A stretch of DNA of 61,259 nucleotides from Armatimonadota bacterium. GTDB lineage: Bacteria > Armatimonadota > Armatimonadia > Armatimonadales > Capsulimonadaceae. Within the stretch, counting starts at the first letter, position 1; each line of letters begins with the position of its first letter. Of the stretch, positions 20,249 to 61,259 are shown one piece after another. The notes beneath the pieces were generated by a model. It had not been told where the DNA came from, did no database searches, and saw nothing but the letters and a program-made list of their open reading frames with translations. Location of the stretch: NCBI GenBank assembly GCA_019239955.1, contig JAFAZD010000303.1:1-61259 (forward strand), read 5' to 3'. Both the position numbers and the translations under genes were made by a program.

Positions 20249-23125
20249 ATGCCTCACTCTTTCCTGTCCGCGAAGGCGGACATTCGGCCGAGGGCCACCC
20301 GGCGGCGAATTCATTCGCTGATCCTCGTGTTCGTCGCACTCGTGTTCGCCGCCCCCGCGACCCCGGCGCAGACGCCCACGCCGTCCGGCGGGAAGATGAC
20401 GCCCGTTCGGCCTCCGGCGACGCCGCTGATCGTGCGCCAGCCGTATGTCAGCGTCTGGCAGCCCGCCGACGCCCTGCCGGGCCACTGGCCCGCCTTCTGG
20501 ACGGGCGCGCCCCGAAGCATGACCGGCATCGCCCGCATTGACGGCACCCCCTATGTCTTCCTGGGAGCGCCCGAAAATGTCGGTTCGCCCATGACTCAGA
20601 CCTCGCTGACGGTGACGCCCACGCAGTCGCGTTACGAGCTGCAGGCTGGCGGCGTCACCGTCTCATTGAACTTCCTCTCGCCGGTTGAGCCGGACGACTT
20701 GCGCCGGCAGTCCGTCCCCTTCGGCTACATCCTCGCCGGGGCGCGCAGCGCCGACGGCAGGCCGCACGCCGTCAGCCTCTACTTCGACATCTCCGGCCAG
20801 TGGGCGCACAACGACGAGAAGACGCTCATCACGTGGCGCAGCGACAAGATCACCGGCGGCAAGGAGCCGCTGACGGCCTTCACTGTCGAGCCGGCCGAAC
20901 CCAGGGTGCTGGGCGAGAACCGTGATTACCCGACCTGGGGGCAGGCGGTGTTCGCCACCGCGTCCGGGCCGGGCGTGACCGCCCAGGCGGGGCCGGAGGC
21001 CGATGTGCGCGCCGCGGCGGCCACGCAGGGGCGCCTGGACAACTCGGTGGATCAAAATCGGCCCCGCGCCATCAACGACCGCTCGCCCGTCTTCGGCTTC
21101 AACTTCGACCTGGGCCGGATCGGAAAGCGGGCCGGAAAGCCGGTCGTGCTGGCGCTGGGCCAAGTTCGGGATCCCTCGGTCAGTTACCTGGGCCAGCCCG
21201 CGCCGCCGCTGTGGCGCTCCTACTGGCCGGACTGGCCGCAGATGCTGTCATTCTTCTATGACGATGCCGACAACGCGCTGAAGACGGCTGACCGGCTGGA
21301 CAGGCGCGTCACCGCCGACGCCACCCGCGCCGGCGGGCCCAAGTACGCCGCCCTGTGCGCGCTGGCCTTGCGCCAGGCGTTCGGGGCGACGGAACTGGTC
21401 GGCACGAGTGAGCGGCCGTGGATGTTCATGAAGGAGATCAGCAGCGACGGCAATATCTCCACGGTGGACGTCGTCTACCCCGCCTTTCCCGTCTTCCTGT
21501 ACGCCAACCCGTATTTATTGCGCCTCCAACTCGACCCACTGCTGGCCTACGCCGAGACCGGCGGCTGGCCCAAACCCTTCGCCGAGCACGACATCGGCGC
21601 GTCCTATCCCAACGCCGCCGGACACAACGATGGCCGGGAGGAGGACATGCCGGTCGAAGAGTCGGCCAACATGCTCATCATGGCCGCCGCCTACCTGCGC
21701 TACGCGCCCAAGGCCGACGCCCAGGCCTATGCCAAGCAGCACTACAAAATCCTCAAGCAGTGGGCGGACTACGAAGTCGAGAACGGCCTGGACCCGGCCA
21801 GCCAGAACCAGACCGACGACTTCACCGGCTTCATTGCCCACAGCGTCAACCTCGCCCTCAAGGGCATCCTCGGCGTCGGCGCGATGGGCCAGATCGCCGG
21901 CTACGCCGGCAACAAGGACGATGCGGCCCGCTACACCGCTGCCTCCCGCGACATGATTGCCAAGTGGGCGCAGATCGCCCAGTCCAAGACGGGGCCACAC
22001 CTGACCCTGCAATACGTTGAGCCGGACACGGCGCAGACCTCCGCCTGGACCCGGGGCATCGTCGGCCCGCACGCGCTCCGCCTGCGCGGCGCGGGCGACG
22101 CCGAGGTGCCCGCGCCGGTCGTGGACACGACCCGCAGCTACACGGTCGCCGCCTGGGTCCGGCCGGGCAGCACCAACGGCTTCCAGACCTTCGTGAGCAT
22201 TGACGGCAGCAAGATCAGCGGCTTCTTCCTCGGGCTGCGCGGCGGCACCGGCAGGTTCGCCCTGTCCGCGCCGGCCCGCGACGACGCCGAGCCGGGACAA
22301 CTCTCCTCCGCCAACTCCAACGATGCGGCCGCCGCCGGCACCTGGTATCACCTCGCGGGCGTCTACGACGCCGACGCCGGGACGCTCTCGCTGTACGTCA
22401 ACGGCCAACTCCAGCAGACGGTGCCCTGCAAGACCGTGTTCCATGCGGGCGGTCACACCGCCATCGGCCGGGGCCTCTTCGGGGGCAACCCCGCGGCCTT
22501 CGCCAACGCCTCCATTGACGACGTGCGACTCTATCAGGCGGCCCTGCCTGCTGCGGACATCCTGGCGGTCGCCCGAGACGGCGGCACGGCGCTGCCGGAA
22601 GCGGGTTCGGCCCCGCCATCGGTCGTCCAGCCCGGCCCGCAGTCTCCCGCCGCCTACTGGACGTTCGATGAGGGGACCGGCGCCACCGCCGCCGACTCCT
22701 CCGGCGGCGGCCACACGGCGACTCTGCAGGGCGTCAGCTTGGATCCGAACAATGCCTGGAGCCTGAAGTACAACGCCTTCCCCGACAAGGTGCTGGGCCT
22801 GGACCTCGTCCCCCAGTCCGTCTTGCAGGAGGAGGCGAAATTCTACATGACCCGCCTGAACGAGTTCGGCGTCCCGCTGGACAACCGGCACACGTACACC
22901 AAGACGGACTGGGAGCTGTGGACGGCGGCCTCGACGGACGACGGGGCGCTGCGGCAGGCGTTTGTGGATGCCATCTACAAGTTCGCCGACACGTCCCGCT
23001 TCCGGGGCGCGTTCACGGACTGGTACGACACCGTGAGCGGCCAGCAGGTCGGCTTCGTCGCCCGCCCCGTCATCGGCGGCGTCTTCGCCATCCTGGACAG
23101 GACGGCACTGAAGGCCGGCCGCTGA
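20249..23125 (+). CDS. exported DUF4965/DUF5127/DUF1793 glutaminase-like protein with LamG insertion
   Basis: 958 residues, last gene of the operon, with an AAGGAG ribosome site and a hydrophobic leader at about residues 21-40. The N-terminal half (50-400) matches DUF5127 and the alpha-toroid (400-600) matches DUF4965/DUF1793, the so-called glutaminase family: RPWMFMKEISSDGN, EESANMLIMAAAYLRYA, WADYEVENGLDP. The toroid is interrupted at about residue 600 by a complete LamG/concanavalin-like domain (SYTVAAWVRPGS, LYVNGQLQQTVP) and resumes near 833 with AWSLKYNAFPDKVLGLDL. In relatives that motif directly follows the preceding helix. The enzymatic role of bacterial members is poorly known; glycosidase activity is as plausible as glutaminase. 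Confidence 0.75.
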   Translation: MPHSFLSAKADIRPRATRRRIHSLILVFVALVFAAPATPAQTPTPSGGKMTPVRPPATPLIVRQPYVSVWQPADALPGHWPAFWTGAPRSMTGIARIDGTPYVFLGAPENVGSPMTQTSLTVTPTQSRYELQAGGVTVSLNFLSPVEPDDLRRQSVPFGYILAGARSADGRPHAVSLYFDISGQWAHNDEKTLITWRSDKITGGKEPLTAFTVEPAEPRVLGENRDYPTWGQAVFATASGPGVTAQAGPEADVRAAAATQGRLDNSVDQNRPRAINDRSPVFGFNFDLGRIGKRAGKPVVLALGQVRDPSVSYLGQPAPPLWRSYWPDWPQMLSFFYDDADNALKTADRLDRRVTADATRAGGPKYAALCALALRQAFGATELVGTSERPWMFMKEISSDGNISTVDVVYPAFPVFLYANPYLLRLQLDPLLAYAETGGWPKPFAEHDIGASYPNAAGHNDGREEDMPVEESANMLIMAAAYLRYAPKADAQAYAKQHYKILKQWADYEVENGLDPASQNQTDDFTGFIAHSVNLALKGILGVGAMGQIAGYAGNKDDAARYTAASRDMIAKWAQIAQSKTGPHLTLQYVEPDTAQTSAWTRGIVGPHALRLRGAGDAEVPAPVVDTTRSYTVAAWVRPGSTNGFQTFVSIDGSKISGFFLGLRGGTGRFALSAPARDDAEPGQLSSANSNDAAAAGTWYHLAGVYDADAGTLSLYVNGQLQQTVPCKTVFHAGGHTAIGRGLFGGNPAAFANASIDDVRLYQAALPAADILAVARDGGTALPEAGSAPPSVVQPGPQSPAAYWTFDEGTGATAADSSGGGHTATLQGVSLDPNNAWSLKYNAFPDKVLGLDLVPQSVLQEEAKFYMTRLNEFGVPLDNRHTYTKTDWELWTAASTDDGALRQAFVDAIYKFADTSRFRGAFTDWYDTVSGQQVGFVARPVIGGVFAILDRTALKAGR

Positions 23126-27824: not shown

Positions 27825-27963
27825 GTCAGCGAATGAACAAGTCAGCGAATGAATTCGCCGCTGATGGCCTTCGGCCGATTGTCCGCCTTCGCGGACACCA
27901 GAAACGTCTCCGCGTAGGCGGAGACTCGGCGTCCTCGCCCGGAGCGGCGAATTTATTCGGTGG
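27825..27963. repeat. composite palindromic intergenic element
   Basis: Outer arms CGAATGAATTCGCCGCT (27846-27862) and its near-perfect complement (27943-27959, one mismatch) enclose two small hairpins, GTCCGC-CTTC-GCGGAC and GTCTCCGC-GTAG-GCGGAGAC. A direct repeat GTCAGCGAATGAA precedes the left arm. The element fills the spacer between the GH172 gene and its upstream neighbour. The layout suggests a dispersed hairpin repeat rather than a terminator, because no T tract follows. Confidence 0.75.
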
Positions 27964-38700: not shown

Positions 38701-38704
38701 GATG

Positions 38705-38791
38705 CCCCCCGTCCCCCGATTCTGGGGGAATCCGATGTCAACGGCCCTGCCCCTTCTGACTCCCCCAGAATTGGGGGACGGGGGGCGATCC
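38705..38791. repeat. double palindrome repeat, copy A
   Basis: Two C5/G5 palindromes, CCCCCGATTCTGGGGG (38713-38728) and CCCCCAGAATTGGGGG (38762-38777), are followed by CGGGGGGCGATCC. The second half matches the element at 55245-55315 almost base for base (CTGAC, then the palindrome, then CGGGGGGCGATCC). Confidence 0.85.
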
Positions 38792-40637: not shown

Positions 40638-41405
40638 GTGAGCGCAACTCTCACCAAGACCGTAGAAATTACCGACGCCCAGAAGCGGCAGTACGAGGAC
40701 GCGGGGTTCTTTGTGCTGGAGCGGGTCATCCCGCCCGAACACCTGACCCTGCTGCGCGAGGAATGCGCGCGGCTGATGCGGCTCCAGGACGAGGAGATGG
40801 ACCGGCGCGGCACGGACCACCTGGGGCTGTCGTTCAAGGGCCGCCGCTACTTCCTCTCCGCCTGGCATCAGAGCGAGCGAGTCAAGGAGTTCATGTTCAG
40901 CCCAGTGATGGCCGACATCTGCCGGGCGTTGCTGGGCGACACGGCCTTTCTGGCCTTCGAGCAGTTCGTGGTCAAGGGGCCGGAGCAGGGCATGAGCTTC
41001 GCCTGGCACCAGGACTCCGGATATGTCAACCGGCCCCACCGGCCCTACCTGACCTGCTGGTGCATGCTGGACGACGTGACCGAGGAAAACGGCACCGTTT
41101 ACATGCTGCCCTACGACCGGGCCGGCACGCGGGAGCGCGTGGAGCACGTCAAGGACGAGGCGAAGGGCGACCTGATCGGCTACTTCGGGGACGACCCCGG
41201 CGTGCCGGTGGTCGCCCCGGCGGGCAGCATCGCCTGCTTCGCCTCCACGGTCTTCCACCGCAGCGGCCCGAATATCACGGACAAATTCCGGCGCATCTTC
41301 CTCCCCCAGTATTCGGCGGAGCCGATCCTGAAGCCCGACGGCAGCGGCCCGTACTACCTCGCCGAGCCATTCCTGCGGGACGGAAGGATCGTCGCGGGGT
41401 ATTGA
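40638..41405 (+). CDS. phytanoyl-CoA dioxygenase (PhyH) family protein 1
   Basis: 255 residues from a GTG start at 40638, chosen because AAGGGGGG lies just upstream and because the product then aligns end to end with the 254-residue paralogue next door (SATLTKTVEITDAQKRQYE against TTTPTEAVKITGAQKQQYR). It is an Fe(II)/2-oxoglutarate oxygenase of the PhyH type. The HxD iron ligands are in FAWHQDSGYV, the distal His in VFHRSGPN, with DDVTEENGTVYMLP on the core strand. The substrate is unknown; bacterial members hydroxylate varied small molecules. Confidence 0.85.
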   Translation: MSATLTKTVEITDAQKRQYEDAGFFVLERVIPPEHLTLLREECARLMRLQDEEMDRRGTDHLGLSFKGRRYFLSAWHQSERVKEFMFSPVMADICRALLGDTAFLAFEQFVVKGPEQGMSFAWHQDSGYVNRPHRPYLTCWCMLDDVTEENGTVYMLPYDRAGTRERVEHVKDEAKGDLIGYFGDDPGVPVVAPAGSIACFASTVFHRSGPNITDKFRRIFLPQYSAEPILKPDGSGPYYLAEPFLRDGRIVAGY

Positions 41406-41544: not shown

Positions 41545-42309
41545 ATGACCACCACACCCACCGAGGCCGTTAAGATCACCGGCGCCCAGAAGCAGCAGTA
41601 TCGGGAGCAGGGCTATTTCCTGCTGGAGAGCGTCATCCCGCCCCGCCACCTCGCGGCCCTGCGCGGCGAGTGCCGGCGCTTCATGGACGAGATGGACGCG
41701 GAGATGGACCGGCAGGGCGTCACGACTCTGGGGATCAACCACAAGGGCAGCCGCTACTTCGTGCCGTTCGGGGCCGAGCGGAGCGCCCCGCTGCACGACT
41801 TCGTGTTCTCGCCTCTGATGGCCGACATCTGCCGCGCCACGGTCGGCGAGGACGCCTTCCTGTTCCTGGACCAGTACGTGGTCAAGGCCGCCGAGCGGGG
41901 CATGACGTTCTCCTGGCACCAGGACGAGGGCTACATCGGCTACCCCAACCCGCCCTACGTCGGCTGCTGGTGCGCGCTGGACGACGTGACCGAGGAGAAC
42001 GGCACGATCTACGTCCTGCCCTGCGAGCGCGCGGGCACGAGGACCAAGATGAAGCACGTCAAGGACGAGGCGACCAACGACATGGTGGGCTACCACGGCG
42101 ATGACCCCGGCATTCCGATCATCGCCCCCGCTGGGAGCATCGCCGTCTTCTCGTCCACCACGTTCCATCGCAGCGGCCCGAATCTGACGGATAAGATGCG
42201 CCGCGTTTATCTGGTGCAGTATTCCGGCGAGCCGATCACCAAGCCGGATGGCTCACTGCACCTGCGCGCCGTGCCGTTTTTGAAGGGCGGCGAGATCGCG
42301 GCGACGTAG
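41545..42309 (+). CDS. phytanoyl-CoA dioxygenase (PhyH) family protein 2
   Basis: 254 residues, a close paralogue of the preceding gene product; the two share long blocks such as CRATVGEDAF/CRALLGDTAF and DDVTEENGTIYVLP. Iron ligands are in FSWHQDEGYI and TFHRSGPNLT. GAGGAGAAA precedes the ATG. The pair looks like a tandem duplication whose copies have diverged mainly in the substrate-facing loops (YIGYPNPPYVGCW against YVNRPHRPYLTCW). Confidence 0.88.
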   Translation: MTTTPTEAVKITGAQKQQYREQGYFLLESVIPPRHLAALRGECRRFMDEMDAEMDRQGVTTLGINHKGSRYFVPFGAERSAPLHDFVFSPLMADICRATVGEDAFLFLDQYVVKAAERGMTFSWHQDEGYIGYPNPPYVGCWCALDDVTEENGTIYVLPCERAGTRTKMKHVKDEATNDMVGYHGDDPGIPIIAPAGSIAVFSSTTFHRSGPNLTDKMRRVYLVQYSGEPITKPDGSLHLRAVPFLKGGEIAAT

Positions 42310-54164: not shown

Positions 54165-54320
54165 CGAACCCGGCCCTGAAGGGCCGGGCTACAGCCAAGC
54201 AAAGCCTGCTGAAGCAGGCTGCAGGGCGCGAACCTTGTGTTCGCCCCTCCCTCGGCAGCCCCCTTCAGGGGGCTTCTCCTGGCCCTAGTCCGGCCCTTCA
54301 GGCCGGGAACCTGGTCTGAT
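54165..54320. repeat. imperfect long inverted repeat with internal hairpins
   Basis: CCCGGCCCTGAAGGGCCGGG near 54170 is itself a palindrome and pairs imperfectly with CCGGCCCTTCAGGCCGGG near 54290-54307. Between them are AGCCTGC-TGA-AGCAGGCT and GCCCCC-TTCA-GGGGGC hairpins. It fills the spacer between the dehydrogenase and DapA-family genes. Confidence 0.7.
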
Positions 54321-54334
54321 ACAGAGAACCATCC

Positions 54335-55285
54335 ATGAAGCCTGGTTGGAAAGGCGTCTTCCCCGCCGTCACCACGCAACTCAAGCGAGACCAGTCGCTG
54401 GACCTGGACGCCACGGCGCGGCACCTGGACGTGCTGCTGGAATCGGGCGTGCAAGGCGTCGTCATGCTCGGCTCGCTCGGCGAGAACAACTCCCTGGAGC
54501 CGGAGGAGAAGCGCCGGGTCATGGAGATGGCCGTCAAGACGATGAGCGGCCGTGTGCCGGTCCTGAGCGGCGTCTCCGAATACAGCACCGCCGCCGCCTG
54601 CCGCTACGCGCACGACATGGAGCGCCTCGGCGCGGACGGCCTGATGCTGCTGCCGGCGATGGCCTACAAGGCTGACCCGCGCGAGACGATGGCCCACTTC
54701 CGCACGGTCGCCCGCGCCTCCGGCCTGCCCATCATCTGCTACAACAACCCCCTCGCCTACCATGTGGACATCACGCCGGAGATGTTTGCAGAACTCGCGG
54801 ATGAGGAGACGTTGGTGGCGATCAAAGAGTCGTCCGGCAACGTGCGGCGCATCACGGACATCATCAACGCCCTCGGCGACCGCTACACGATCTTCACCGG
54901 CGTGGACGACCTGGCGCTGGAGAGCGCGCTGCTGGGGGCCGAGGGCTGGATCGCGGGCGTCGGCCTGGCCTTCCCGCGCGAGAACCAGTCCCTGTGGGAC
55001 CTGGCGACGGGCGGACAGTGGGAGAAGGCGCGCGAGCTCTACCGCTGGTATATGCCGCTGCTGCATTTGGACATCCCGATCAAGTTCGTGCAGTACATCA
55101 AGCTGGCGATCCAGGAGGTCGGCCTGGGGGCGGAGTGGGTGCGCGCGCCCCGCCTGCCTTTGGAGGGCGCGGAGCGCGAGGCCGTGCTGACCATCATCCG
55201 CCGGGGCATCGAGACCCGCCCGCAACTTCCCGCGCCCGAAGGCCCCCTAGCCCCCAATTCTGGGGGAACCGGATTCCCGGTCTGA
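54335..55285 (+). CDS. DapA-family (dihydrodipicolinate synthase-like) lyase/dehydratase
   Basis: 316 residues of the class I pyruvate-dependent aldolase superfamily. The Schiff-base lysine is K164 in LVAIKESSGN; the pyruvate-binding loop is GSLGENNSLEPEEK and the Tyr motif is IICYNNPLAYH. Members include 2-keto-3-deoxy-arabonate dehydratase and 1-pyrroline-4-hydroxy-2-carboxylate deaminase. Either would fit: the first for arabinose oxidation with the preceding dehydrogenase, the second for hydroxyproline breakdown with the epimerase at 57398. The last 13 or so residues (PLAPNSGGTGFPV) are encoded by an intergenic palindrome repeat that also supplies the stop. Confidence 0.85.
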   Translation: MKPGWKGVFPAVTTQLKRDQSLDLDATARHLDVLLESGVQGVVMLGSLGENNSLEPEEKRRVMEMAVKTMSGRVPVLSGVSEYSTAAACRYAHDMERLGADGLMLLPAMAYKADPRETMAHFRTVARASGLPIICYNNPLAYHVDITPEMFAELADEETLVAIKESSGNVRRITDIINALGDRYTIFTGVDDLALESALLGAEGWIAGVGLAFPRENQSLWDLATGGQWEKARELYRWYMPLLHLDIPIKFVQYIKLAIQEVGLGAEWVRAPRLPLEGAEREAVLTIIRRGIETRPQLPAPEGPLAPNSGGTGFPV

Positions 55286-55315
55286 CTCCCCCAGAATTGG
55301 GGGCGGGGGGCGATC
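55245..55315. repeat. double palindrome repeat, copy B, invading the 3' end of the DapA-family gene
   Basis: CCCCCAATTCTGGGGG (55251-55266) and CCCCCAGAATTGGGGG (55288-55303) are followed by CGGGGGGCGATCC. This is the same order as copy A at 38705. The DapA-family stop codon (55283-55285) lies between the two palindromes. Confidence 0.9.
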
Positions 55316-55348
55316 CGGGCGCTCTCTCTACGCGCTTTAAGAAAACCT

Positions 55349-60881: not shown

Positions 60882-61012
60882 CCAGACCTCCCATTGCGGC
60901 CTCACGCCCAGTCCGTCCCGGCGCACCTTCAGCACCGCTGCTCTGTCCGCTTTTTCACCCTCCACCCGGCCCAGCCCTGCGGCCCGAAGGGGAATCCCGG
61001 TTCCGAGCAGGG

Positions 61013-61207
61013 TCATTCCGTTCTCGCCTGGCGACTGAGGAGCCTGGCGACTGAAGTCGCGGCTATCCGAGGCGCTGTCGGCCTGCGCCGACGCAGACCC
61101 GGCCTGCCCCGCACGCAGGGCCAGAACGTCCCCGGAGGGGGACAGTGCTCTGAATAGCCGCGACTTCAGTCGCCAGGCTCCTCAGTCGCCAGGCGAGAAC
61201 GGAATGA
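61013..61207. repeat. perfect 54-bp inverted repeat with 87-bp spacer
   Basis: Bases 61013-61066 are exactly complementary to 61154-61207. Each arm itself holds two copies of GCCTGGCGACTGA. The spacer (61067-61153) has smaller hairpins (CTGTCGGC/GCCGACGCAG, GTCCCCGGAGGGGGAC) and no coding frame. As RNA it would form a very stable stem. Confidence 0.92.
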
Positions 61208-61230
61208 TCCTGCACCGGGCCAGTCTTGCT

Positions 61231-61246
61231 CCCCCAGAATTGGGGG
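61231..61246. repeat. C5/G5 palindrome, copy C (partial at window edge)
   Basis: CCCCCAGAATTGGGGG is the same core as at 38762 and 55288, followed by CTAGGGGG. The element may continue beyond the window. Confidence 0.8.
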
Positions 61247-61259
61247 CTAGGGGGTGGTC

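Follow-up and report, generated by a model that had tools for sequence, protein, structure and literature searches.

Among the closest described relatives of the repeat studied here is the REPIN/RAYT system (Bertels & Rainey 2011, PMC3116915; Nunvar 2010, PMC2817692), in which two inverted REP palindromes with a short spacer form a hairpin, copies with compensating changes are dispersed in large number and a Y1 transposase gene is flanked by the same hairpins. Quentin et al. 2018 (PMC6006769) listed subclass 1.2 of the TnpA-Y1 transposases without REP and generally without terminal hairpins, mostly in Cyanobacteria and Bacteroidetes; their REP search accepted only GT[AG]G feet. REP dimers located in outer palindromes were reported from A. 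variabilis (GTAG-15), H. neapolitanus (CGTC-1) and T. roseum (GTAG-23) (Di Nocera 2013, PMC3733652). The repeat described here shares with these nested dimers a hairpin pair within an outer palindrome; the outer palindrome was left unexplained there, whereas here it consists of DDE transposon ends. The palindrome-associated elements (PATE) of Haloquadratum may be a parallel.

The window, i.e. the whole stretch of 61,259 bases that was analysed, is the entire contig C237 of a 5.0-Mb draft genome in 409 contigs, and the repeat stops 52 bases short of the contig edge. The genome belongs to the Capsulimonadaceae (Armatimonadota), the family that also includes Capsulimonas sp. RYN_270. We propose, at a probability of about 80%, that this feature is a 205-bp nested non-autonomous element (61008..61212, no strand assigned, delimited with the help of its genome copies) without a gene of its own, in which the shell of an ISAs1 MITE encloses a Y1-derived REPIN-like core. 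The original prediction missed this nesting of two element types. As it had stated, the arm at 61013-61066 is matched in reverse complement by the one at 61154-61207 at every base (54/54). The repeat extends outward to 61008 and 61212 and, with mismatches, inward to 61093 and 61127, and the full extent of the imperfect repeat is 61007-61093 and 61127-61213 (87 nt, 87%).

From outside to inside, each side consists of a 19-bp end, a duplicated half-unit, a REP-like palindrome (H1) and a second hairpin (H2). The left end CAGGGTCATTCCGTTCTCG (61008..61026, + strand) was assigned as an ISAs1-type terminal inverted repeat using a genome end search and the 1.2-kb ISAs1 elements of a same-order genome (G014), and the right end CAGGATCATTCCGTTCTCG (61194..61212, - strand), with one mismatch, using the end search and flank comparison. 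The unit GCCTGGCGACTGA does occur twice in each arm (61026-61038 and 61042-61054; 61166-61178 and 61182-61194), and no other mismatch-free copy was found in the whole window. The outermost copies (61026..61038, + strand; 61182..61194, - strand) are extra half-units, each of which duplicates one half of the inner palindrome. H1 GCCTGGCGACTGAAGTCGCGGC with the inner foot CTAT (61042..61063, + strand) and H1' in the opposite orientation (61157..61178, - strand) were located by a search with the pattern GGCGANTNAANTCGCGG, the latter also by pairing analysis. H2 GTCGGCCTGCGCCGAC (61077..61092, + strand), which has a counterpart within Y1 transposase gene flanks, is the partner of H2' GTCCCCGGAGGGGGAC (61128..61143, - strand). 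H2' is the C/G palindrome that had been placed 24 bases further on; it actually lies 62 bases beyond the left arm and 10 bases ahead of the right arm. The loop of the hairpin is asymmetric.

When the element was searched against its own draft, as the original prediction had suggested, about 18 other places carried copies at E < 1e-10. The best copy, on contig C77, was 94% identical over 208 bp, and the copies on C77, C251, C316 and C368 had a layout like that of the window. Flanks, loop and half-unit number varied among copies, the C368 copy having additional degenerate half-units. An assembly foldback or chimera at the contig end could be suspected from the perfect arms and from the 52 bases between the repeat and the contig edge. 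However, many contigs share the layout in differing flanks, the loop is asymmetric, and the contig end itself lies within another short repeat, CTCCCCCAGAATTGGGGG, which is also present at 38746 and 55272. Since the copies differ in flanks, loops and half-unit numbers, foldback is not the explanation, its chance being next to negligible, and the window repeat belongs to a dispersed family. Recent origin or gene conversion, which had been read from the identity of the arms, may have occurred, but the identity between arms (54/54) barely exceeds that between copies (53/55). In a region of C77 (locus L139, 13500-14300), hairpin arms with tandem GCCGGGCGAGCAATGAGA-like units were observed on both sides at about 170-470; these arms seem to grow symmetrically.

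Further repeats were observed in the window. Another family of short repeats, built on the unit CCCCCAGAATTGGGGG, forms inverted pairs at 38704-38786 and 55232-55322, and a single unit at 61225-61259 makes up the contig end. A tandem duplication with 910-bp spacing (40887-41342 and 41797-42252, about 75% identical) probably represents duplicated genes.

The outer end CAGGGTCATTCCGTTCTCG, with up to 3 mismatches, was found at 31 sites in the own genome, compared with 2 for the reversed pattern. Terminal inverted repeat matches numbered 18 in this genome and 19 in G014, and at most 1 in every other one of the 291 genomes sampled from the same phylum. In G014, inverted pairs of the shell ends about 1.2 kb apart enclose frameshifted (broken) ISAs1-family transposase genes, the proteins of which exceed the cut-offs of the ISAs1 model NF033564 and of PF13808. 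The 18-bp ends are common to the own shell and the G014 elements with 1-2 differences. Target-site duplications of 9-10 bp (score ≥7) were detected at 8 sister elements in the own genome and at 4/4 G014 elements, while mispaired-flank controls gave 0/182. The own copies concerned are on C64 (GGAATGCAGG), C77 (GAACCGGCAG), C103 (GGCGGATGTG/GGCGGACGTG), C238 (GGACTAAAGA), C251 (GATGGCGCGC), C316 (GGATCGCCCC), C368 (one mismatch) and C401 (GCAAAAGCA); on C390, GCGGGCCTCT was seen by eye on either side of a copy with a decayed left end. The C84 copy was without a target duplication, and its right end was unrecognisable. The duplication search thus succeeded for the sister elements and failed for the window copy, where the best candidate was 9 bp with 3 mismatches; the flank of this copy may be rearranged. 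Because individual copies of real MITEs can lose the target duplication, its lack at the window copy does not exclude the ISAs1-type MITE family.

Given the same ends on the ISAs1 elements of G014 and the duplications at sister copies, the outer shell is, as judged from its sequence, that of an ISAs1-type MITE. The element resembles the G014 ISAs1-type elements in its ends and 9-10 bp duplications and differs from them in that it codes for no protein and its interior is a REP-like pair. Of the three earlier suggestions, that of a non-autonomous mobile element was borne out by the dispersed copies, the transposon-like ends and the duplications at sister copies. In the own draft, the only ISAs1 sequences were remnants on C405, which share 39% identity with the protein of G014 and have no shell ends, and no intact ISAs1 gene with shell ends was found in its 409 contigs, drafts being liable to miss repeats. 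An empty shell without the core was not found in the own genome either. The PF01609 transposases of the own genome were rejected, none having shell ends in its flanks, and so was a single end on C245, which has no adjoining transposase.

Two other readings were weighed. The 19-bp shell might be a palindrome that served the hairpin pair as its insertion target, given that Di Nocera et al. 2013 (PMC3733652) describe REP dimers within long palindromes of A. variabilis and H. neapolitanus. The 9-10 bp duplications at the outer edges of the shell and the presence of the same ends around ISAs1-family genes in G014 both speak against this, and we regard it as quite improbable; the core could have landed in a shell-only palindrome inside a true MITE. 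Retention for function as a structured RNA, which was also suggested originally, or as a terminator would fit the paired changes between the arms and the very stable predicted RNA fold of the whole imperfect repeat (-184 kcal/mol, z = -20.2 against shuffles). But no Rfam family reached its gathering cut-off, the weak matches to eukaryotic hairpins (MIR5534 and TUC338) staying below the gathering score and being ascribed to the long hairpin, and dispersal with target duplications accounts for the copies, so the chance of this reading is slim. Separately, a short element with ISAs1-like ends, GCAGAAACGT/GTAGAAACGT flanks and an unrelated inner hairpin GCGCCCTACGCAGAGGCGC was observed in another genome (L143, G036:C20, 1501-1660); ISAs1-like shells may carry other hairpins too.

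Inside the ISAs1-type shell, the core is built like a REPIN. The H1 pattern GGCGANTNAANTCGCGG, with one mismatch allowed, matched 93 genome sites against 2 in the control. Among H1 sites no more than 250 bp apart, 27 adjacent pairs pointed inward (tail-inside) and 0 outward, and the variable arm cores were identical in 24/27 pairs, where random pairing gave 8.5 as expectation and 17 as maximum in 10,000 trials. The variable base pair within the H1 arm was complementary in 83/93 sites. Inward of each H1 lies a second hairpin, giving the plan H1-H2...H2'-H1'. As in a REPIN, the REP-like palindromes form a hairpin from two inverted copies separated by a short spacer, and both C203 and C63 carry a cognate Y1 gene with this type of REP on its flanks. 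The core differs from described REPINs in the second hairpin at each end and in the hairpin foot, which in the own copies is ATAG, AGAG, ACAG, AAAG or CAAG, the canonical GT[AG]G being absent; for this reason we call it REPIN-like rather than a REPIN. Many relatives from Cyanobacteria, Chloroflexota and Gemmatimonadota have a GTAG foot. The exact H1 23-mer occurred in Chloroflexota, Cyanobacteria, Gemmatimonadota and Armatimonadota, and at 23/29 places a hairpin lay within the following 40 bases, versus 20/145 in the control.

The shell encloses cores of type A (GACTGAAGTC) in some copies and of type B (GAATGAATTC) in others, and type A is also found free of a shell. The whole repeat might be an ordinary MITE whose inner palindromes are degenerate arm sequence with no Y1 link, and ISAs1 alone can indeed explain the shell copies with target duplications. 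This reading is unlikely and already disfavoured, as the inner pair is also shell-free (C63:2596, C155, C341, C344) and bounds Y1 genes. In a tree of the A cores, 7/9 A-type shell copies clustered (92/85), which suggests that a single core, once captured, probably spread together with its shell; the AU test rejected a single origin of the shell copies (p = 5e-5), so that, on this tree, core capture or exchange is placed more than once. A third type of REP-like inverted pair (CCGGCCCTGAAGGGCCGGGCTAC..., with a GTAG foot) was observed in the window at 54170-54307, and a decayed shell at C282:4827 (L053) contains it as well. At 20265-20297 and 27865-27897 of the window, TGTCCGCGAAGGCGGACATTCGGCC occurs in opposite orientations and resembles H2 alone.

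The statement that no transposase is present held for the element itself, but an inner-hairpin-flanked transposase gene is located elsewhere in the genome, on C203. Among the Y1_Tnp genes of the own genome, those of C203 (TnpA of about 146 aa) and C63 are bounded by H1/H2 hairpins of type A and type B, respectively. Their proteins gave scores of 65.5 and 81.6 bits with the IS200 model NF033573 (cut-off 55), and relatives matched at E ≤ 0.001 in 8/8 cases. With the RAYT model NF047646 the score was 25.3 against a cut-off of 80; unlike in the REPIN/RAYT system, the transposase here does not score as a RAYT (TnpA-REP). Transposases with DH[VI]H, WQ and Y---Q--HH are shared with TnpA-Y1 subclass 1.2 (PMC6006769). 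The C203 and C63 proteins carry DHVH, WQ and Y---Q--HH or Y---Q--YH, the C63 signature YIHSQEEHHRN being exact and the C203 signature YIHNQEEYHRN having Y in place of the first H; they therefore appear to carry the subclass 1.2 signature, by motif match and not by the published class profile.

For Y1 relatives from the protein search in Armatimonadota and other phyla, a locus was counted as positive when the 330 bases flanking the gene on each side gave an inverted repeat with a score of at least 18. Such repeats were present at 30/42 loci with Y---Q--HH, a count in which a few are doubtful as H1-H2 (e.g. L229, L271) since the test accepts any inverted repeat, and at 0/7 loci without the signature; random positions passed in 18/3370 cases (0.5%). 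Most of the 30 positive loci, a Gemmatimonadota gene (L224) among them, showed the two-hairpin plan, the sequence being specific to each gene. In other phyla, plasmid-borne genes had the flank repeat in 2/2 cases with the signature (Bacteroidota) versus 0/3 without it. In contrast to the published description of subclass 1.2, most such genes here have paired inverted ends, and they occur in many Armatimonadota. The GT[AG]G requirement may explain why the hairpin link of this subclass was overlooked, the own copies having NNAG. A DNA partner for subclass 1.2 appears to be new, and so does the nesting of a hairpin pair in an ISAs1 shell; among the open-licence papers searched, none dealt with ISAs1 MITEs that carry REPs, and an earlier description may exist elsewhere.

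The layout, the copy number, the duplications at sister copies and the same-ended ISAs1 elements (in a relative) and Y1 elements (in the own genome) were observed directly, and from this anatomy we infer transposition by ISAs1 and Y1 enzymes, which enzyme moves which part, the nesting order and present activity. The core matches the ends bounding IS200-like Y1/HUH genes (C203 for this core type, C63 for the second) and would most likely be an internal-deletion or REPIN-type derivative of a Y1 element. It would then have entered a MITE that belongs to an ISAs1-family DDE transposon and moves in double-stranded form, duplicating 9-10 bp of its target, and the composite would afterwards have been spread by ISAs1 transposase in trans. 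We lean, with some reserve, towards the wider view that subclass 1.2 Y1 transposases have their own two-hairpin REPIN-like ends in several phyla and that these ends were repeatedly captured by ISAs1-type MITEs.

Two questions are touched here, namely the way in which REPs spread and the DNA substrate of subclass 1.2, for which none had been described. With a defined set of hairpin ends assigned to particular small transposases of about 146 aa, both become directly testable. If our reading is true, one element would be movable by two unrelated chemistries, single-strand HUH and double-strand DDE, and earlier REP dimers inside unexplained palindromes could be accounted for; through nesting, short hairpins would be able to hitch-hike on a DDE transposon.
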